From a virus, in the IMG/VR virus record IMGVR_UViG_3300027749_000306, positions 1-34,415 of that record: 34,415 bases of DNA. The stretch is one strand, 5' to 3'. The position numbers were made by a program, and so were the translations under genes. Positions 4,938 to 28,912 of the stretch are shown piece by piece; within the stretch, counting starts at the first letter, position 1; each line of letters opens with the position of its first letter. The notes below the pieces were generated by a model, which worked only from the letters and a program-made list of their open reading frames with translations, did not search any database and was not told where the DNA came from.

Positions 4938-5849
4938 TTAAAGTTTGCCTTCGAGCTGTAAAGCCCGCTTGTTTTCAGCATATTCTTGGTCAGTCATTTT
5001 CAATGATCTGGCCATTTCACGCTCGTCGGCAGTCAAACGCACAACATTTGGGCGTGTGCCTGGCGTTGCAGTTCGACTCACTGGCGCCGCCGGTGGTGAC
5101 GTGCGACGCTGGACGACCTTGGCGGCCTCGTAAGTGGGGTCAGCGACTTCAACTGCCACAGGTGCCGACCGATTGACCTTCAACGTGTCCTCAATTACGT
5201 CAAAATAGTCGTCACTGTCAGGCGCCAAGCCGTCAGCCATTGCCAAATTGTGGGCGGCAATCATCTTCTGGAACAGGCGCTGGTCAGTGGCAAACTGCGG
5301 GTGCTGACGAATCCACGCGGCAGACCGTGGCGACAATTGCGACGCCAAAGTCTCAACCGGATCAAGCGGCTGCTGGTACTGAGGCACGGCCTCTTTAACC
5401 TGCGACTCCATAGCCGTCTTGCCATTTTCAAGTTGCAGCAATTTGGCCGAGTTGTCCGCCATACGCTGCTGGATCTCAGCCGCCCGATCGTAATCACCGA
5501 CCGACATAGCGTCGCGGTAATTGGCTTTCAGGTAGTCAGTTTCTTGCCGCACGTTAACAATGGCATTGTTAATTAGCGTCAAATTGGTGTTGCTGACTTC
5601 ATTCTTGGCTTCAAACTCGCGTTGCGCTGCCTCACGCGCACGCTTGTCTGCCTCGGCGCGCGCAAGTTTTTCCTGCTCAAGCTGGAATTTTAACTCGCGA
5701 ATACCAATTTCAGGCGGCATTTCAGGCGCAGCGGCCTGAGATCCAGCCTCTTCAGTCTTGGCAACTTCGACCTCGATTTCGCCTTTCGGTGCCTCTTCAG
5801 GCACCTTCAAGTCAATTTCAATTTGCTCTTCGGCTTGCTTTTTGGCCAT
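4938..5849 (-). CDS. Scaffold-like protein
   Basis: 303-aa, strongly acidic at the N-terminus (MAKKQAEEQIEIDLKVPEE). It has a long predicted coiled coil at about 50-170 containing LKFQLEQEKLARAEADKRA and later EIQQRMADNSAKLLQLE. The second half has a LASQLSPRSAAWIRQHPQF motif and a C-terminal helix (LTADEREMARSLKMTDQEY). Such composition (acidic, helical, coiled coil, small basic C-terminus) and the position just before the capsid genes match phage head scaffold proteins. The conserved C-terminal helix would be the capsid-binding end by analogy. AAGGAG precedes the ATG. Assignment is by composition and synteny rather than a diagnostic motif. Confidence 0.72.
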   Translation of the reverse strand: MAKKQAEEQIEIDLKVPEEAPKGEIEVEVAKTEEAGSQAAAPEMPPEIGIRELKFQLEQEKLARAEADKRAREAAQREFEAKNEVSNTNLTLINNAIVNVRQETDYLKANYRDAMSVGDYDRAAEIQQRMADNSAKLLQLENGKTAMESQVKEAVPQYQQPLDPVETLASQLSPRSAAWIRQHPQFATDQRLFQKMIAAHNLAMADGLAPDSDDYFDVIEDTLKVNRSAPVAVEVADPTYEAAKVVQRRTSPPAAPVSRTATPGTRPNVVRLTADEREMARSLKMTDQEYAENKRALQLEGKL

Positions 5850-15689: not shown

Positions 15690-15702
15690 ATGCATTCTCC
15701 AT

Positions 15703-15717
15703 TGCTATAAAATAGCA
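15703..15717. repeat. Inverted repeat upstream of the terminase operon
   Basis: TGCTAT (15703-15708) and ATAGCA (15712-15717) are perfect inverted arms around AAA. It lies just upstream of the terminase small-subunit ribosome site, in the divergent region, and is followed on the plus strand by six T. Operator for the leftward operon or a weak terminator are both possible. Confidence 0.4.
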
Positions 15718-15756
15718 TTTTTTGCCAATTTTTCAACGCCCCAAATTTTTTTATAA

Positions 15757-15812
15757 AAAAATGAAGTTTTTTCATTTTTGTTGTTGACATTGTGAAGATA
15801 CTTCATTAAATT
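15757..15812 (+). promoter_or_regulatory. Early promoter module 1 with paired TGAA-N5-TTCA operators
   Basis: TTGACA at 15784-15789 is followed after 17 bases by TAAATT (15807-15812), a plausible sigma-70 promoter for the gene at 15850. Two inverted repeats of the form TGAA-N5-TTCA flank the -35 box: 15762-15774 (within a longer AAAAATGAA/TTCATTTTT palindrome) and 15793-15805, the latter inside the spacer. Their starts are 31 bp apart, about three helical turns. A near-identical module lies at 16495-16545. A repressor or activator dimer binding both sites is inferred. Confidence 0.65.
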
Positions 15813-15849
15813 CAAATCATCAAATGACATTAACCAAATGGAGACTAAA

Positions 15850-16062
15850 ATGCGTTACAACACCATGAAAATTGAAAATGACGGAATGAATCGCGATCAC
15901 GGCTCGCTCTATGACCGTGGTGGTGCTGACAGCTATTACGGCCGCAAAATGACACCTCACTACTATGTTGGCAGCAGCCGCGTCACTGACCTGACGGACG
16001 AGCAGATTGCTGAGTACCGCGCTGGTTATGTTGAAAACACTGACCTCAAAGATTGGGGCTGA
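15850..16062 (+). CDS. Small conserved phage protein, DRGGADSYYGR type, 70 aa
   Basis: First rightward gene. Product MRYNTMKIENDGMNRDHG..., with the block YDRGGADSYYGRKMTPHYY, then VTDLTDEQIAEYRAGYVEN and a terminal DLKDWG. This DRG-x-AD-x-YYGR / PHYY / T-EQ-I-x-EY-x-GY layout is a small protein family I recall from many aquatic phages; function unknown. A longer in-frame start at 15838 exists, but its ATG overlaps the GGAG ribosome site, which is spaced correctly for the ATG at 15850. Expression is presumably from the operator-bearing promoter just upstream, suggesting an early gene. Confidence 0.8.
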   Translation: MRYNTMKIENDGMNRDHGSLYDRGGADSYYGRKMTPHYYVGSSRVTDLTDEQIAEYRAGYVENTDLKDWG

Positions 16063-16064
16063 TT

Positions 16065-16148
16065 ATGAAAAGCTTTTTGTGGGATGTGTTTGAACTCGCT
16101 GGGATTGCCACCTTTGTGGCGGCAATTCTCCTTATCATCAATTTTTAA
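16065..16148 (+). CDS. Single-pass membrane mini-protein, 27 aa
   Basis: Begins two bases after the previous stop: MKSFLWDVFELAGIATFVAAILLIINF. Residues about 10-26 are an unbroken hydrophobic helix, so it should insert in the inner membrane with a short N-terminal tail. Its stop shares one base with an upstream ATG of the next gene. Preserved spacing in the operon supports a real gene; short length limits confidence. Function unknown. Confidence 0.5.
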   Translation: MKSFLWDVFELAGIATFVAAILLIINF

Positions 16149-16159
16149 TGGAGATTAAC

Positions 16160-16483
16160 ATGGGCAAGGCAAAGAAAAACGACATCATCGCTATTGAGGA
16201 AACCTGCAGCATGACCAACCTGCACAGCACCACCAAAACTTATGAGGTTTTGTTTTTGGCGCGCGTAACTCGCTCTGATCGTCAGGGCATCGTGCAGGAG
16301 TTTAAAAAAATTGGCGGCACCAAGTGCAAGGCAGAGCGCCCTTACCGCGTGATGACCATTGACAATGCCGACAAGCAGGCACTGGCGCAGGTTTTGGCTG
16401 AGAAGCTTGAGGCTGAACCAAACAAAAACTATTACAACAACCCTAAATTGCTGATTGACGCTATTTTGACTGGCGTCGCGTAA
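16160..16483 (+). CDS. Hypothetical early protein, 107 aa
   Basis: Product starts MGKAKKNDIIAIEETCSM; no recognised family. It has an alpha/beta pattern: a strand-rich N-terminus (TTKTYEVLFLARVT), a helix (RQGIVQEFKKIGG), a second strand (YRVMTIDN) and C-terminal helices (ADKQALAQVLAEKLEAEP). The start at 16160 is chosen because ATGGAGATTAAC precedes it, with GGAG as ribosome site; the ATG at 16148 overlaps that site. The same 15 bases, ATGGAGATTAACATG, recur at the gene starting 16588. Lies in the early operon between the two promoter modules. Confidence 0.72.
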   Translation: MGKAKKNDIIAIEETCSMTNLHSTTKTYEVLFLARVTRSDRQGIVQEFKKIGGTKCKAERPYRVMTIDNADKQALAQVLAEKLEAEPNKNYYNNPKLLIDAILTGVA

Positions 16484-16494
16484 AAATAAAAAAG

Positions 16495-16545
16495 TGAAGT
16501 TTTTTCATTTTTGTTGTTGACATTATGAAAATACTTCACTAACCT
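16495..16545 (+). promoter_or_regulatory. Early promoter module 2, near-copy of module 1
   Basis: TTGACA at 16517-16522, 17-base spacer, then TAACCT at 16540-16545. TGAA-N5-TTCA sites occur at 16495-16507 (identical 13-mer TGAAGTTTTTTCA to module 1) and 16526-16538, again 31 bp apart and flanking the -35 box. The linking sequence TTTTTGTTGTTGACAT is also shared. It drives the gene at 16588. The second -10 box is weak, so activator dependence is possible. Confidence 0.65.
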
Positions 16546-16587: not shown

Positions 16588-16905
16588 ATGTCAAACATCA
16601 CCGCACTCGTAGACGACTTCGCCGCCATCGACGCTCAGGTCAAGGAATTGACCAAGCAGCGCGATGCAATCAAAAAGCAGCTGCTGGAAGTGGCTGTATT
16701 TATGGCCAACGACAAAATGATTGAGTCCGCAACCTTTGCTGGCACAAAGGCTGACGTGGTCATTACCAAGACTTTCCCCACCACGTTCAGCAAGGATCTG
16801 GCGCAGACGCTGTTGTCGGCTGAGGACTTTGTCCGCTGCCACGCAACGGCCATCAAGCCGACCCTGACGCCTCGCGTCGTGGCCAAGTCCCCCGCGTTCG
16901 CGTGA
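16588..16905 (+). CDS. Hypothetical early protein with N-terminal coiled coil, 105 aa
   Basis: Product MSNITALVDDFAAIDAQVKEL..., with a coiled-coil helix at about 5-38 (AQVKELTKQRDAIKKQLLEVA). A strand region follows (ATFAGTKADVVITKTFPTTF), then a Ser/Ala-rich helix and a basic tail with Pro. This shape (coiled coil plus small beta domain) is common among small phage regulators and inhibitors, but I do not recognise a family. The start at 16588 is preferred over 16567 and 16576 because GGAG lies properly upstream. It has its own operator-containing promoter (16495-16545). Confidence 0.72.
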   Translation: MSNITALVDDFAAIDAQVKELTKQRDAIKKQLLEVAVFMANDKMIESATFAGTKADVVITKTFPTTFSKDLAQTLLSAEDFVRCHATAIKPTLTPRVVAKSPAFA

Positions 16906-16915
16906 GGGGGCTGCC

Positions 16916-17065
16916 ATGTCGAGGCTGATCAACACTTATCGCAAAGTGCCTTCTATGAAAAACCGCAGCAAGTTGCAGGCGTATTTGGAGCGGCACCCGA
17001 TGGCCATCTGCGTGGCCACTGACGCAGAAATTAACTTCCTCATATCAAACCAATTTTTAATTTAA
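16916..17065 (+). CDS. Small hypothetical protein, 49 aa
   Basis: ATG at 16916 preceded by GAGG; 10 bases after the previous stop. Product MSRLINTYRKVPSMKNRSKL... is basic in its first half, then has RHPMAICVATDAEINFLISN. The middle resembles a short helix-strand-helix unit, and similar small proteins with MAICVATxAE motifs occur in phages, but no function is known to me. The close spacing to genes on both sides supports translation. Confidence 0.55.
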   Translation: MSRLINTYRKVPSMKNRSKLQAYLERHPMAICVATDAEINFLISNQFLI

Positions 17066-17076
17066 GGAGAAATATC

Positions 17077-17277
17077 ATGACTGTAGAACAAGTTCTTGGA
17101 GCAAAATATCACGCTCGTCACTTGGCCGACCACGCAATGTTGGTTCATTACGCGGACAATTTCAATGTTATGAACTACCACGCCGCAAGAATGCATGAGG
17201 CATTTTTGGAATTGGCTGACGAAATGGGTTACGATGTCGTCCTCCGCAGCGCTGAACAGGAGCAGGAGGCGGCATGA
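17077..17277 (+). CDS. Hypothetical protein, 66 aa
   Basis: Product MTVEQVLGAKYHARHLADHA..., helical and His-rich, with FNVMNYHAARMHEAFLELADEMGY and an acidic end (EQEQEAA). A strong AAGGAG precedes the ATG. The stop overlaps the start of the HTH gene (ATGA), so the two are translationally coupled. No family recognised. Confidence 0.68.
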   Translation: MTVEQVLGAKYHARHLADHAMLVHYADNFNVMNYHAARMHEAFLELADEMGYDVVLRSAEQEQEAA

Positions 17278-17522
17278 AGGGCAGGGAATTAGGCGCGATC
17301 ATGGGGAGGCACAGTTTAACTGTGCCTGACCTCGCTCTGGTAATGGGCGTGACTAACCGCAGTGTGTTCAATTGGCTGTCTGACAACCACCAGATCCCCA
17401 ATTCGGTCAGTCTGCTGGTCAAGGCATTTGATCAGGGCATCATTACGGTGGAATGGCTTGCAAACAATTTAGAGGCATCGCCAGAGGACGAACCACCACC
17501 CAAAGGCACCCCAGCAGCATAA
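17274..17522 (+). CDS. Small helix-turn-helix regulator, 82 aa
   Basis: Product MKGRELGAIMGRHSLTVPDL... Residues about 10-50 fit a Cro/CI-like helix-turn-helix: LTVPDLALVMGVTNRSVFNWLSDN, with the recognition helix around TNRSVFNWL. The next segment PNSVSLLVKAFDQGIITVEWL resembles the later helices of XRE-type domains; the tail is Pro/Glu-rich. It overlaps the 66-aa gene by 4 bases and is followed directly by a strong terminator. It is a candidate binder of the TGAA-N5-TTCA sites at the head of this operon, an inference from location only. Confidence 0.8.
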   Translation: MKGRELGAIMGRHSLTVPDLALVMGVTNRSVFNWLSDNHQIPNSVSLLVKAFDQGIITVEWLANNLEASPEDEPPPKGTPAA

Positions 17523-17530
17523 AACGAAAG

Positions 17531-17552
17531 AGGCCGCTCAGCGGCCTTTTTT
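17531..17552 (+). terminator. Strong bidirectional terminator
   Basis: AGGCCGC (17531-17537) and GCGGCCT (17541-17547) form a perfect 7-bp stem with loop TCA, followed by six T (17547-17552) on the plus strand and by CTCTTTC on the minus strand. It separates the rightward early operon from the convergent gene ending at 17559. Confidence 0.9.
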
Positions 17553-18747: not shown

Positions 18748-20869
18748 CTAAGCGCTCAACAGCCCTTGCAAACGTCTTCCGCTTCGTGTCTTCGCCATTT
18801 GGGTTGCCAGCATAGTAATATTGGCGCCAAGCATTGACGTTAACGACCCGTGTGTTGGCTGGGATCTGCGACAGGCCGACCATTTCGCCACCCTCATTGA
18901 TAGCCATTCTAAGCGCCGCTAAAACCGTTTTGTCATTCGCATTGAGGGTTCGGTCGATCTTCTTTTTGGCGGGCGTTTCGGATATCTCAATCGGCACCAG
19001 AGCAAGGCTCTTGTGTTCCGGATCTATAGCACTGAGTGCTACAGTTTCCATTTGGAACATAAGCTTGAAACCGTCCTCGCCGTCCTTCTGTTTGGTCACG
19101 AGGATCTGCCCGATGCGCTCGTCCGAGTTCTCGTCGGATATGCGCGTCAGCTCCAGTTCCGCGTCCACAGCGCCGAGGAGGCTGCTGTGACCGCGTTGTC
19201 CGCGTGCCTCGTCCTTGCCGCTGTGGTGGACGATCATGACGGCGGATCCGGTCGCCTGCTGCAGGAGGCCGATGATATTAATAAAGGCGCCCATGTCCTC
19301 GGAGGTGTTTTCGTTGCCGCCGGCGAAGGCCCGCGCCAGCGTGTCGATGACAATCAGCTTCGGCTTGATGTTGTTCTTTTTGATTGAAGCAAGGAGTCCG
19401 GCTAGGTCTTCCATTGTCGAGCGCAGGTTAAGTTGGCTCTTCAGGAAATACAGGTTCGGTATCTCTGGCATGTCGTGACGCTTGCGGAGGGCGTCTAGAC
19501 GACGTTTGAGGCCAGCGCCGCCCTCACCCGCAATATAAACGACGTCGCCCGCCTCAGACTTCTTACCAAAGGCCATGAGGCCCAAGGCGACGCAGGCGCT
19601 TAGGTAAAGCGCCACAAACGATTTAAACGTGCCAGGCTTGCCGTAGAGGGCCACGAAGGCCATCATGGGTATGAGGTCTTGCAGCAGCCACTTCACCTGC
19701 TCGTCGGTAAGTTTTGTTGAAGGGATAAGGAGATACTTGTCCTTGATCTTTGGCTTTTCGTTGTCGCTGCTGAAGTTATCCTCGTCCGAATACCCAAATG
19801 CCGATTTGGGTATTGCGATAAATGGCTCTTTCGAAAACTTCAGCAAAATCTCGCCAGTTTCGGAATCGATCGTGTATTCCGTCGGGTCAAAAGGGCGAGC
19901 GGTGTCCTTTACCGAACGCTCTTCCTTGGCGTGGTCAGACACTTTATCCCACCACTGCGCGGCGGCAGTGTTCCACTTTTGCGTGAAGAGCGATATTCCG
20001 CGATTTTCCCGTTCTAGTAGAACGGCATTGTCGGTCTCAGGCTCAACAATTCGTGATTTCGTTTTCTTTTCATAGACTTCGAACGCTTTCTTCATCTCAG
20101 TTGTGAGGAATGCATCATTGATCATCGGGGCTTCGCGCCGAAGGTTAACAAGTGTCCCCCAGATCAGGCGCGTCATGTATTCCTCGCGGCCATCTTGAAC
20201 GCGGCCAGAAATCGAGATCTCATACTTCGGCGATGAAGTTTTTTCACCTTTGACGTTTGTTGTTGTCTTGCCGCCAAATTCCTCGGCGAGGTGATCAATC
20301 TCCTCGCATAGCCACTGCGGGCATTCGGCGACGTCTATTTCATGCGGGCCGTTATTCTCGGCCCAGTCGTAATTTTTGCCTGACTCGTGCAGACTGGGGG
20401 CAATGACGGCGAAGCCGCCCTGTCCGCGTATGTCGATGCCGAGGCTTGTCTTGCAGGTGGGTGCCGACCATCCGGCGGGGATCTTGAAGAAGTATTGCAG
20501 GCCACCGCCGCCAGTTTTTTGAAAGACGGTCTCAAGTTCGCCGGCTGTCTGCTGTCGGTCTTGCATGGCCTGCCACCACCCTGCCGCCGACTCGTGCCGC
20601 TGAATGTCGAGGTCGATGACGACGATGTTGGAGGCTTGGCCGGTGATGATGCCGATATTCTTTTCTTTGACGTAGTCGCCATTGGCGCCGTACCAGCGCT
20701 CGAAGGTAAGGTCGGGGACCAGTTCCTGCTGGAGCGGCCGCCACTCGACGAGCGGTCGCTTCCACTGCTTACCTTTTTGTGGGCTGACGGCGGGAACGAT
20801 TTGCCATTTAAGCGTGCGGTAAAACCTTGCCCAGTCGGCGGTGCCGCCAAATTCCAAGTCGTAATTCAT
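18692..20869 (-). CDS. Bifunctional primase-polymerase / RepA-like helicase
   Basis: About 725 aa. N-terminal Prim-Pol (AEP) region, residue numbers counted from the upstream Met: NIGIITGQASNIVVIDLD (about 75-92, DLD as metal site), KTGGGGLQYFFKIP (122-135) and DIRGQGGFAVIAPSLHESG (150-168). C-terminal RecA/RepA-type ATPase: Walker A GKPGTFKS (414-421), AGEGGAGLKRRLDAL, Walker B LIVIDTLAR (509-517) and VMIVHHSGKD (548-557). It should prime and unwind phage DNA. I prefer the ATG at 20869, one base after the methyltransferase stop, over 20881 which overlaps that gene. The 3' end contains iteron sequences and the middle a 13-mer identical to the early operator. Confidence 0.9.
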   Translation of the reverse strand: MNYDLEFGGTADWARFYRTLKWQIVPAVSPQKGKQWKRPLVEWRPLQQELVPDLTFERWYGANGDYVKEKNIGIITGQASNIVVIDLDIQRHESAAGWWQAMQDRQQTAGELETVFQKTGGGGLQYFFKIPAGWSAPTCKTSLGIDIRGQGGFAVIAPSLHESGKNYDWAENNGPHEIDVAECPQWLCEEIDHLAEEFGGKTTTNVKGEKTSSPKYEISISGRVQDGREEYMTRLIWGTLVNLRREAPMINDAFLTTEMKKAFEVYEKKTKSRIVEPETDNAVLLERENRGISLFTQKWNTAAAQWWDKVSDHAKEERSVKDTARPFDPTEYTIDSETGEILLKFSKEPFIAIPKSAFGYSDEDNFSSDNEKPKIKDKYLLIPSTKLTDEQVKWLLQDLIPMMAFVALYGKPGTFKSFVALYLSACVALGLMAFGKKSEAGDVVYIAGEGGAGLKRRLDALRKRHDMPEIPNLYFLKSQLNLRSTMEDLAGLLASIKKNNIKPKLIVIDTLARAFAGGNENTSEDMGAFINIIGLLQQATGSAVMIVHHSGKDEARGQRGHSSLLGAVDAELELTRISDENSDERIGQILVTKQKDGEDGFKLMFQMETVALSAIDPEHKSLALVPIEISETPAKKKIDRTLNANDKTVLAALRMAINEGGEMVGLSQIPANTRVVNVNAWRQYYYAGNPNGEDTKRKTFARAVERLVSHGTVGSWANYCWITNA
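20234..20246. promoter_or_regulatory. Third copy of the TGAAGTTTTTTCA operator-like 13-mer
   Basis: Exact copy of the 13-mer at 15762 and 16495, here inside the primase/helicase coding sequence and followed by TTTGACG. It could be an intragenic site for the same regulator or coincidence; the coding frame (Gly-Glu-Lys-Thr-Ser) fully accommodates it. Confidence 0.3.
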
Positions 20870-20870
20870 G

Positions 20871-22556
20871 TTATTTTCCATTTTTTATCTCAATATAATT
20901 TTGTATGCGTTTGCCGATCCAGTGCATTACAGGAACGGCCATGCTGTTGCCAAGGGCTTTATATCGCGGGCCATCGGCGGCGTTTGGGATTGCAGTGTAG
21001 TCGTCAGGAAAACCTTGCAATCGCTCACACTCGCGCGGGGTCAGGCGGCGCACTGCCATTTGTTGTGCAATTACATGACTTGGCCTGCTTGGCCTGTCTT
21101 CTCCTTCAGCGCGTAAAGTACCTGCTTTGTCATCTTCCATCCAATAACCCTGTCCACTCTCGCGTATGACAATTGGTTGCATTACGGCTGTGCCTCCTTG
21201 TGCCGCAGTTGGGTTTAACCCAGATGCGGCATCCAATGTCTTGCTGGTGATTGCATCCATATCAACATAAAACCCGCCCTCTGGCCGATCGGGCCGCTTA
21301 TTGCCGCCAAAGATATTGATTGGTTGCGCTACCGCCATACTTCCCCCACCATTTGCATCATATGCGCCAAGAGAGCGAAGCGTAGGCGACATGTCCGTTG
21401 TAGCGTCACTGCCGTAGTCTTTTGAGTTAAATGCAATTGGTTGTACTACATGCATGTTGCTATTTGAACTTAAAGTTCCAGTCGGCAGCTCACTTTCAGC
21501 CCTTGATCTGTTTGTCGCACTTGTAATTTGCGCCAAATCAAATGCTATTGGTTGCATGACAGCTGTTGTTGTGCTGTTTTGAATACCGCCTGGTGCTCTG
21601 GATAATAAAGCATTAGAAACTTCAGTGTAACTTGCAGTATTTACTGTGCCATCAGACCCATGCAATATAATACCAATTGGTTGCGCTACTAAATCTGTTG
21701 CATCTTTCCAATCGCGAGCCTTCATTGCGCTGGCAGTTCCATCTTCAACATATTCGCCAAATGCAACCATACGGGCAGCTAAAACAGCACCAGCAATCTG
21801 ATTTCTTATCGGACCATCTTTGGCACGCGCGTCTAATGTTGGATTTAATTCGGTGAAATTACCTCCAGAAGGGCCAATTTCAATGCCTCTGGCAGATCCT
21901 TTCCCCGCACTGCGGCTCGGCGCAATATCCCTGCGCACGCCTTCGCGCTCAAAAAGTATTTCTGCTGGATCGAATCCGTCTCTAGCACTTGCGACAACGA
22001 ACACACGACGGCGTCGTTGGGCCACTCCGAAATATTGGGCATCAAGGACACGCCACGCTGCTGATCTTTTGGGACCAACAACCAAACCAGCGTTTGTCCA
22101 CTTTCCCCCTGTCGGGATGAGGGGGGCATCATTTCCCGTAAGGGCGGCAAGGAAGCATCCGAAGGCGTTGTCTTTGACGGACAAGACGCCGGGGACGTTT
22201 TCCCAGACGATGATGGCAGGGGGTCGTGCTGCATCATGTCGAACATTGTCAATTGCATCGGCCAATCTCACAAATTCTAATGTTAAATTTCCACGATCGT
22301 CTGACAGCGATTGGCGCAATCCCGCCACGCTAAACGCTTGACAGGGCGTTCCACCCACTAACAAATCGGCATCAACAATCCAATCCTGATCACGCAAAAC
22401 GGTAAAATCACCGTGGCATGGCGTGTCGGGGTAATGATATGCCAATACTTGACGAGGGAATTTTTCTATTTCGCTAAATGCCAGTGGCTGCCAGCCAATG
22501 GGGTGCCACGCCACTGTTGCCGCCTCTATTCCTGAGCATACTGATAAATATTTCAT
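20871..22556 (-). CDS. DNA cytosine-C5 methyltransferase with repeated variable region
   Basis: 561-aa m5C methyltransferase. Motif I LSVCSGIEAATVAW (4-17), motif IV GGTPCQAFSVAG (68-79, catalytic Cys 72), motif VI WENVPG (118-123), motif VIII QRRRRVFVVA (180-189), motif IX TPRECERLQGFPDDY (about 506-520) and motif X KALGNSMAVPV near the C-terminus are all present, so it should be active. The target-recognition region between VIII and IX is unusually long (about 300 aa). It holds at least five units ending in V/A-x-QPI (AQPIGI, MQPIAF, VQPIAF, AQPINI, MQPIVI). The ribosome site AAGGA derives from the last word of the array at 22557-23484. Likely protects phage DNA from restriction. Confidence 0.92.
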   Translation of the reverse strand: MKYLSVCSGIEAATVAWHPIGWQPLAFSEIEKFPRQVLAYHYPDTPCHGDFTVLRDQDWIVDADLLVGGTPCQAFSVAGLRQSLSDDRGNLTLEFVRLADAIDNVRHDAARPPAIIVWENVPGVLSVKDNAFGCFLAALTGNDAPLIPTGGKWTNAGLVVGPKRSAAWRVLDAQYFGVAQRRRRVFVVASARDGFDPAEILFEREGVRRDIAPSRSAGKGSARGIEIGPSGGNFTELNPTLDARAKDGPIRNQIAGAVLAARMVAFGEYVEDGTASAMKARDWKDATDLVAQPIGIILHGSDGTVNTASYTEVSNALLSRAPGGIQNSTTTAVMQPIAFDLAQITSATNRSRAESELPTGTLSSNSNMHVVQPIAFNSKDYGSDATTDMSPTLRSLGAYDANGGGSMAVAQPINIFGGNKRPDRPEGGFYVDMDAITSKTLDAASGLNPTAAQGGTAVMQPIVIRESGQGYWMEDDKAGTLRAEGEDRPSRPSHVIAQQMAVRRLTPRECERLQGFPDDYTAIPNAADGPRYKALGNSMAVPVMHWIGKRIQNYIEIKNGK

Positions 22557-24635: not shown

Positions 24636-25084
24636 TACTGTATGGTTTCGACGTAGAAGCGTGCTAACAGCGCTGCCTCCGCGCGACCATTATCCTTTTT
24701 TCTGCTAAATCCTTGATTTTCGGGCCACAATCTAATTGCCAGCGCGCGTGATTCGTCTTTGTCTGATGTCAGGCGGAAGTGCTTTTTCCAGCGCACGGGG
24801 CTAACAAGGTGATAGGGGATCATGCTGGCGGCGACGGTGCCGATCGCGATACCGTAAGCCATACCGAACTTGAAAGTGCTGGCGACGCCTTGGCCAGGCA
24901 TTGAGTGGACGGCCTCGATCATGGCCGCACTGGGATTATACTTATTGATGAGATGAAATAAACCAGCGCCATCGACCTGATTGCCGGCAACGGGCGTATC
25001 GTAGACGGACACGCGGTTTTCTTTTGGGAAGTAAAACGCGACGGCGCCAGAGATGCCAGGGTCGATGCCGAGGATGCAAGTCAT
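24635..25084 (-). CDS. RuvC-like Holliday junction resolvase
   Basis: 149-aa RNase H-fold nuclease. Visible catalytic set: LGIDPGISGAVAF (Asp 8), AAMIEAVHSMPGQGVASTF (Glu 57), a basic/acidic patch SDKDESRALA (108-117) and KKDNGRAEAALLA with Asp 131 and Glu 136. The MPGQGVASTFKFG stretch after the Glu is typical of phage RuvC-like proteins, and length matches them (about 150 aa). It would cut branched DNA formed during phage replication or recombination before packaging. The ATG overlaps the previous stop. The distal motif has RAEAALLA where many relatives have RADALLLA; Glu can serve as metal ligand. Confidence 0.85.
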   Translation of the reverse strand: MTCILGIDPGISGAVAFYFPKENRVSVYDTPVAGNQVDGAGLFHLINKYNPSAAMIEAVHSMPGQGVASTFKFGMAYGIAIGTVAASMIPYHLVSPVRWKKHFRLTSDKDESRALAIRLWPENQGFSRKKDNGRAEAALLARFYVETIQ

Positions 25085-25272
25085 GCTACTTTGTTCCTAT
25101 TATTATGTTTGGCAAAGTCTTTGTATCTGATGCGGCCGCTAGACCGCATCATGATTTCGATTTGCATATGGTAGGGAACTTTATTGCGACTACGCCACTG
25201 ACGTATAGTGTGGTCGAGGATGCCAAGGTCTTTGGCGATCTCCGCAATAATTTGCCACTGCTCAGGTGTCAC
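25081..25272 (-). CDS. Small putative DNA-binding protein, 63 aa
   Basis: Starts with GTG overlapping the stop of the GapR-like gene (GTGA), and ends overlapping the resolvase start (ATGA). The product MTPEQWQIIAEIAKDLGILDHTIRQWRSRNKVPYH... matches a short helix-turn-helix: IAEIAKDLGI then DHTIRQWRSRNKV as recognition helix. The tail is basic (RIRYKDFAKHNNRNK). Probably a small regulator or accessory DNA-binding protein; the four-base overlaps on both sides imply coupled translation. Confidence 0.72.
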   Translation of the reverse strand: MTPEQWQIIAEIAKDLGILDHTIRQWRSRNKVPYHMQIEIMMRSSGRIRYKDFAKHNNRNKVA

Positions 25273-25573: not shown

Positions 25574-25602
25574 ATCTTGTGACAATTTGTCACGAATGTC
25601 AA
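25574..25602 (-). promoter_or_regulatory. Leftward promoter with operator in its spacer
   Basis: On the minus strand TTGACA (25602-25597) is followed after 17 bases by CAAGAT (25579-25574), a moderate -10 box. The inverted repeat GTGACA-ATT-TGTCAC (25579-25593) fills most of the spacer, a classic repressor position. It would control the GapR-like gene and the replication operon. Confidence 0.55.
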
Positions 25603-28130: not shown

Positions 28131-28281
28131 GAATTGGGAGCTTCTGTCCCAAGCTTTGGGACGTATTGACTTCCTCGAAGAAAGCTATTATGAGTTGGAC
28201 TTGGAATACCAAATATACAAATCAAAAGTTTATGAAATGAAAAAAAGGAATGATACAAATGACAAGAGATCAGGTGATTGA
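28084..28281 (+). CDS. Hypothetical coiled-coil protein, 65 aa
   Basis: Product MDLKERLQFAINHKVENWELL..., mostly helical: LSQALGRIDFLEESYYELDLEY then a basic end (KSKVYEMKKRNDTNDKRSGD). I use the ATG at 28084, eight bases after GGAGGT, rather than 28063. It overlaps the zinc-ribbon gene by 47 bases. No family recognised. Confidence 0.62.
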   Translation: MDLKERLQFAINHKVENWELLSQALGRIDFLEESYYELDLEYQIYKSKVYEMKKRNDTNDKRSGD

Positions 28282-28303
28282 GTGCGCTAAGGAGCGGACT
28301 ACA

Positions 28304-28912
28304 ATGAGTAAAGATTTTCGCGTTTTAGTCAGAGTAAAAAACAATTTACTTTTAGAGAAAATAGAAAAGGCTGGATACGATTCGATCAGTGAATTTTCCA
28401 GAGCTTGCGGCGTGGCACAAACGACTGTTGGTCATTTTGTAAACATGCAAAAATCACCCATAAATTCTCATAGCGGTGAATATAGTCAAGCATTTATGAA
28501 AATAATTGATTTTTTAAAATGCATACCGGAAGACGTATTTCCTGAAAAACTAATGGATAAAAAAATAAAGGGATACAAAAAAGAATTTAAAATAGACGCC
28601 GACGATTTGGTCTCATCTTTGCGTTCACTAACAATTGAACCAGAAAAAAAGATGATCATGGATCAAGCAGAGCAAAATTTTAAAACATTATTAAAAGAAA
28701 AAATATCATCACGGGAATATGAGATTTTAAAAATGCGATTTGGATTGGATGGCAGCGAAAAATATACACTTGAGGAGGTGGGCGAAAAATTTAATCTTAG
28801 TGGTGAGCGCGTTAGATCTATTGAAGTAGGAGCAATGAGAAAATTAAAAAGCCCATCCACTTTCAGGCAAACAAGAAGCATTTTTGAAGATTATACATCA
28901 GCGAGGAATTAA
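28304..28912 (+). CDS. Helix-turn-helix plus sigma-70 region 4 regulator
   Basis: 202 aa. N-terminal XRE-like helix-turn-helix at about 15-60: LLEKIEKAGYDSISEFSRACGVAQTTVGHFVNM, the same start I recall in alphaproteobacterial phage regulators. C-terminal about 134-186 is a clear sigma-70 region 4: LKMRFGLDGSEKYTLEEVGE then GERVRSIEVGAMRKLKSPS, nearly the RpoD pattern that contacts the -35 box. Regions 2 and 3 are absent, so it is not a full sigma factor. It may redirect RNA polymerase or act as a -35 binding regulator. ATG at 28304 follows AAGGAG; in-frame ATGs at 28250 and 28259 are alternatives. The gene is A+T-rich relative to neighbours. Confidence 0.85.
   Translation: MSKDFRVLVRVKNNLLLEKIEKAGYDSISEFSRACGVAQTTVGHFVNMQKSPINSHSGEYSQAFMKIIDFLKCIPEDVFPEKLMDKKIKGYKKEFKIDADDLVSSLRSLTIEPEKKMIMDQAEQNFKTLLKEKISSREYEILKMRFGLDGSEKYTLEEVGEKFNLSGERVRSIEVGAMRKLKSPSTFRQTRSIFEDYTSARN

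Follow-up and report, generated by a model that had tools for sequence, protein, structure and literature searches.

The window analysed here, an IMG/VR virus record of 34,415 bp, carries two copies of a promoter module in which a short palindrome lies between the −35 and −10 boxes. The small helix-turn-helix (HTH) protein encoded last in the operon behind them is very likely an Aca/Cro-like autorepressor that shuts off the early gene cassettes by promoter occlusion. Module and HTH protein would very probably form a self-limiting on/off switch for the first genes of the phage; we infer its binding, repression, timing and cooperativity from sequence.

To the left of position 15,700, the terminase and other long open reading frames are oriented leftward, and the replication genes also run leftward, from 25,544 to 17,559. 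The first rightward operon starts at 15,757 and ends with a terminator near 17,550, and its divergent neighbour is the terminase small subunit gene. The small rightward genes are probably early genes. The operon contains the following elements.

15762..15774, + strand: upstream operator of module 1, TGAAGTTTTTTCA, centred at about −51, with the same arms in the relatives L050 and L004
15784..15789, + strand: −35 box of module 1, TTGACA
15793..15805, + strand: spacer operator of module 1, TGAAGATACTTCA, a perfect 5-3-5 palindrome
15807..15812, + strand: −10 box of module 1, TAAATT, 17 bp from the −35 box
15850..16062, + strand: 70-aa protein, cassette 1, with homologues behind the module in L004, L050, L073, L075, L076, L077 and L107
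16065..16148, + strand: 27-codon hydrophobic peptide MKSFLWDVFELAGIATFVAAILLIINF, read from the sequence
16160..16483, + strand: 107-aa protein, missing between the two modules of L050 and first in order in L004
16495..16507, + strand: upstream operator of module 2, TGAAGTTTTTTCA
16517..16522, + strand: −35 box of module 2, TTGACA
16526..16538, + strand: spacer operator of module 2, TGAAAATACTTCA, with four of five pairs
16540..16545, + strand: −10 box of module 2, TAACCT (weak), 17 bp from the −35 box
16588..16905, + strand: 105-aa core protein, cassette 2, a coiled coil plus a small alpha/beta part
16916..17065, + strand: 49-aa protein
17077..17277, + strand: 66-aa protein, whose stop overlaps the HTH start
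17274..17522, + strand: 82-aa HTH protein, the proposed cognate autorepressor, with an Aca2/Aca10/Aca1-like fold
17531..17552, + strand: hairpin AGGCCGC-TCA-GCGGCCT followed by T5, read from the sequence (a scan gives the same stem on the minus strand)

A GGAG ribosome-binding sequence precedes both ATG 15850 and ATG 16588, which are most likely the starts of the genes behind modules 1 and 2. The 66-aa and HTH genes are likely to be translationally coupled, and the hairpin directly 3′ of the HTH gene is the predicted operon terminator. For the 105-aa protein, structure comparison yielded no convincing counterpart. A 30-aa hydrophobic open reading frame occurs in L081 and L109 at a position similar to that of the 27-codon peptide.

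TGAA-N5-TTCA occurs five times in the window (15762, 15793, 16495, 16526 and 20234) versus 0.89 expected from shuffling. Sites 15762/15793 and 16495/16526 form two pairs whose start-to-start distance is exactly 31 bp, and no such pair arose in 300 dinucleotide shuffles of the window or in 20,000 local shuffles of 15701–15850. The duplicated module with paired sites, reported in a preliminary description together with a shared first site and linker, is thereby confirmed. The flanks of the two modules are unrelated, yet their first 28 bases, through the −35 box TTGACA, agree at 28 of 28 positions. Each module has the same order: a site, TTGACA, a second site within the 17-bp spacer, and a −10 box. 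The lone fifth site, TGAAGTTTTTTCA at 20234–20246 in the Prim-Pol/helicase (primase-helicase) gene, has neither partner nor promoter and is probably due to chance. When all viral contigs were scanned for the pair geometry alone (TGAA-N5-TTCA at 31 bp), 60 distinct pairs were found, the majority in unrelated phages. Of 55 unrelated pairs, 4 had a TTGACA-like box at the matching position, against 1.9 expected; the difference is not significant, and we therefore claim no convergence. The 31-bp pairs with a TTGAC-like box in unrelated phages (L016:607, L027:6632, L033:2261 and L052:2485) are in no excess over shuffling.

The contigs L050 and L004 are close relatives of the window (96–97% identity in the protein behind module 2), and L004 has a third module. 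The preliminary description had tied its proposal to conservation in relatives; both sites are kept in L050 and L004, in surroundings that differ. In all six pairwise comparisons among the window, L050 and L004, the outer TGAA/TTCA arms show 0 of 16 changes, while up to 6 of 10 inner positions are changed, several of them towards better symmetry. The sites with altered centres in L050 and L004 read TGAAGCATCTTCA, TGAAGAAACTTCA, TGAAGTTTCTTCA and TGAAGATACTTCA. Because the arms are fixed while the centres vary, the site is a 5-3-5 palindrome. The TGAA-N5-TTCA operator described earlier is thus real, but it is better written as the 13-bp TGAAG-N3-CTTCA. This form is perfect in L004 and L050, and in the window only in copy 15793; the TTTTTT form in the window is a degenerate operator copy.

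In distant relatives, the promoter geometry is kept and the palindromes differ (CGAAA, GGAAA, CGCAA, TGGCC and TGGCG). A palindrome between −35 and −10 recurs in two to four copies per locus in many of them. With low thresholds, a permissive search for spacer palindromes of any kind returned too many chance matches. It was replaced by a stricter scan, for which shuffling gives a background of 0.18 strict modules per 10 kb, and only matches whose half-sites recur at early promoters were retained. The half-site classes are as follows.

[CT]GAA(A/G): L073–L077, L079/L107, L081 and L109
TGAAA/GGAAA: L091, L111, L112, L113 and L114
CGCAA or CGCAG: L089, L090, L093, L094, L095, L098, L099 and L115
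TGCAA: L097
TGGCC: L084, L110 and near-identical contigs
TGGCG: L083, L086 and L124 (whose contig falls in the bin of a Beijerinckiaceae MAG)

The spacer site is the constant element across the classes. An upstream site lies at 30–32 bp in the GAA and TGG classes and is degenerate or absent in the CGCAA class. Therefore, pairing is not universal, cooperativity at 31 bp cannot be general, and the spacer site is the essential element.

The earlier proposal that the 82-aa HTH protein regulates the rightward operator is supported by synteny and by covariation between half-site and recognition helix. In nearly all relatives that extend far enough, a gene of the HTH family lies downstream within the same cluster, and the 105-aa protein is its most constant neighbour. 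The alignment of the HTH family was so diverse that it could not be used to scan the collection. The half-site changes with the recognition helix in a partial Mantel test that controls for general divergence via the 105-aa protein (r = 0.61, P = 0.0002, n = 18), the P value being optimistic because the relatives share ancestry and are not independent. The correspondences are listed below.

Helix VTNR[ST]VFNWL: half-site TGAAG
Helix K..RTVQ.WL: half-site [CT]GAA
Helices KTPRTVRLWL and VTARSVNNWT: half-sites GGAAA/TGAAA
Helix S..RMVEYWR: half-site CGCAA
Helix VHERTIYKWL: half-site TGGCC
Helix VNPRTLFRWL: half-site TGGCG

A simple code is broken by L097, which has G where others have E and nonetheless has CGCAA-like sites, and by L100 (CGTAA/CGAAA). 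L098 has a CGCAA-type helix, and its operator was missed by the first scan; a targeted second search uncovered CGCAATGGTTGCG behind a −35-like box, which fulfils the prediction made from the helix. In L096 (5708–5750), a spacer operator CGAAATAGTTTCG accompanies a 105-aa protein of the CGCAA group, the HTH lying past the contig end. L080, a 59.9-kb record whose 105-aa protein is 79% identical to that of the window, contains neither the HTH nor a GAA-type pair, and its promoter ahead of the 105-aa gene is kept with the palindrome absent. It represents a natural double loss of the HTH and its operators, in a single case.

The AlphaFold2 model of the HTH protein (20 relatives) has five helices and a pLDDT of 85, with only residues 1–66 helical and confidently folded. 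Its nearest solved structures are Aca2, SO3848, Aca10, HigA2, MqsA and Aca1. The match is closest to Aca2 (Z 10.9, rmsd 0.8 over 55 residues, 26% identity), with Z 10.1 for Aca10 and 8.5 for Aca1. Many other Cro/C1-type folds score Z 7–9, so the resemblance to Aca is a fold match and not proof of descent. Profile comparisons also matched Aca2 (E = 0.0026) and, weakly, the 434 repressor; a single-sequence search of the PDB gave no match. R29, which is invariant, corresponds in the alignment to Aca2 R30, a residue key to DNA binding in that protein (PMC8434428).

We propose the following course of events. Because the −35 boxes are at or near consensus, the promoters should fire on DNA entry, and both modules would act at that point as strong sigma-70-type promoters requiring no phage activator. 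They would express two cassettes of small genes, with the 82-aa HTH protein as the last product of the second transcript. An HTH dimer on TGAAG-N3-CTTCA between −35 and −10 would then block RNA polymerase, assisted by another dimer bound three helical turns away, at the upstream site. The outcome would be a pulse, in which the early genes are on at once and are then shut off by their own last product. The relatives would share this layout, with different palindromes that fit the recognition helices of their own HTH proteins.

Other roles for the sites and the protein fit these data less well. If the HTH were an activator, it would recruit polymerase from about −51 and the spacer site would merely set a ceiling. 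In keeping with this, the distance from the upstream site to the −35 box is fixed in the TGAAG and [CT]GAA classes, in which the spacer site moves by one base, and it is constant at 22 bp in the GAA classes (d = 30 and d = 31). However, −35 boxes at or near TTGACA with 17-bp spacing make an activator unneeded, the CGCAA class dispenses with the upstream site and always has the spacer site, and L080 has a good promoter and no HTH; we consider activation improbable. An immunity repressor of a temperate phage, with the role of CI instead of early shut-off, seems equally improbable, although co-divergence of operator and regulator is the heteroimmune pattern of cluster A mycobacteriophages (PMC6550527). 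The HTH gene would be transcribed from the very promoter that it silences and has no separate maintenance promoter. In addition, a search confined to tyrosine integrases found none in the window and ten relatives of up to 60 kb, records that may be fragments, control genomes being positive. The absence of a tyrosine integrase from these records favours a Cro/Aca-like shut-off over lysogenic immunity.

Binding of the sites by another protein is more improbable still. The candidates are the XRE/sigma-region-4 protein (28250–28912), which carries HTH domains and was the other regulator considered, and a host factor. The former has no homologue in the long module-carrying relatives G002, G003 and G005, and a host factor would leave the change of the sites in step with the phage's own HTH unexplained. 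The N-terminal half of the protein at 28250–28912 contains a weak XRE-type HTH, and its C-terminus a sigma-70 region 4; the protein was found in near-identical contigs only. We give the least credence to the idea that the repeats are mere recombination linkers between cassettes, bound by no regulator. Cassette joints do coincide with modules, but the palindromy, the position between −35 and −10, the fixed arms with varying centres and the covariation with the HTH would all be left unexplained.

A different small HTH protein (25081–25272) is encoded in the leftward operon of the window, whose promoter on the − strand (25580–25602) has TTGACA followed by a spacer palindrome, TGACA-AAT-TGTCA. This HTH and palindrome may constitute another autoregulated pair, with a separate operator; relatives of the protein were found only in near-identical contigs. 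The first gene of that operon encodes a GapR-like DNA-binding protein (PF10073, 25269–25544), and a C-5 cytosine DNA methylase domain (PF00145) lies at 20871–22556 in the leftward replication gene block.

In addition to their proposed role in autorepression, the modules seem to serve as homologous joints for cassette exchange, as judged from the comparison of flanks, in which different genes join at modules and the upstream flank and downstream gene combine freely. The terminase side is joined to the 70-aa gene in the window and L050 and to the 107-aa gene in L004. The 107-aa gene is joined to the 70-aa gene in L004 and to the 105-aa gene in the window, and the membrane-peptide side is joined to the 105-aa gene in L050 and L004. 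The 107-aa gene thus appears to be a mobile cassette gene. L073 and L075 each pack four modules into about 2 kb, and additional small genes follow these modules. In the CGCAA-class relatives L089 (3160–4176) and L099 (7103–8134), a gene of about 340 aa, by its sequence a putative C-5 cytosine methyltransferase, lies between the early genes and the HTH. L124 encodes another small HTH protein, Cro/YdaS-like on inspection, at about 5220–5420, upstream of the 105-aa gene. No DNA-level relative of the operon was found among phage records beyond a 105-bp terminase match, and the 105-aa protein has no relative among the GenBank phages searched. MW202675 has a related terminase gene, and its annotation includes no obvious operon counterpart adjoining it. 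Ten cassette proteins gave no NCBIfam or Pfam match that would name an anti-CRISPR, in libraries with few Acr families.

Phage early genes are a main source of anti-defence proteins, most of which were found via a known regulator. In this poorly known aquatic phage group, the module and a matching HTH flag early-gene cassettes, and the natural series of operators and helices makes the specificity code of the HTH family directly testable. Tentatively, and with some doubt, the module may be a portable early-gene adaptor, combining promoter, operator and recombination joint, that places plugged-in genes under the resident autorepressor. If so, anti-defence or host-takeover genes would plug in behind it; the families of 70, 107, 105, 101 and 196 aa and the 27-aa membrane peptide would form an anti-defence pool, and fast change of operator and regulator would stop related phages from cross-silencing their early genes in mixed infections.

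In Aca promoters, an inverted repeat lies within the core promoter, and some families have another outside it (PMC9410906). The present operon shares the core-promoter repeat and, like those of Aca1, Aca2 and Aca10, encodes a small HTH protein last among small genes, with nearest solved folds of the Aca2/Aca10/Aca1 type. By analogy, the HTH may resemble Aca in how it works. We do not class it as Aca2 because 82 residues are too few for the long dimerisation domain at the C-terminus of Aca2 (chains of about 115–125 aa). No Acr gene was recognised among the ten cassette proteins with NCBIfam and Pfam. Unlike in acr-aca operons, the whole promoter module is duplicated, with two to four copies per locus, and several operator specificity classes exist within one phage group. 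The lambdoid Cro and 434 repressor share the Cro/C1-type HTH and the proposed dimer on a short palindrome overlapping an early promoter, whereas the divergent CI/Cro pair and tripartite operator of the lambdoid switch are absent, the terminase small subunit gene being divergent instead. Operator motif and repressor diverge together as in the repressor–stoperator system of cluster A mycobacteriophages (PMC6550527). Those stoperators are 20–30 asymmetric sites of 13–14 bp spread genome-wide, mostly outside promoters, in contrast to the two to four promoter modules in one region here; four of the five TGAA-N5-TTCA copies in 34.4 kb fall within the two modules. In archaeal viruses with Aca8, small early genes each have one shared promoter sequence, a single small regulator presumably shuts them off, and many are predicted to be anti-defence genes (PMC11065993). 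Shared early promoter copies ahead of small genes are common to both systems, although Aca8 acts with an archaeal promoter and has another fold (wHTH). Each element is therefore already known in kind: Cro/Aca autorepression, co-diverging operators and a shared early promoter. What is new is their combination, namely a duplicated two-operator module, cognate operator/helix classes in one syntenic locus, and cassettes bounded by modules.
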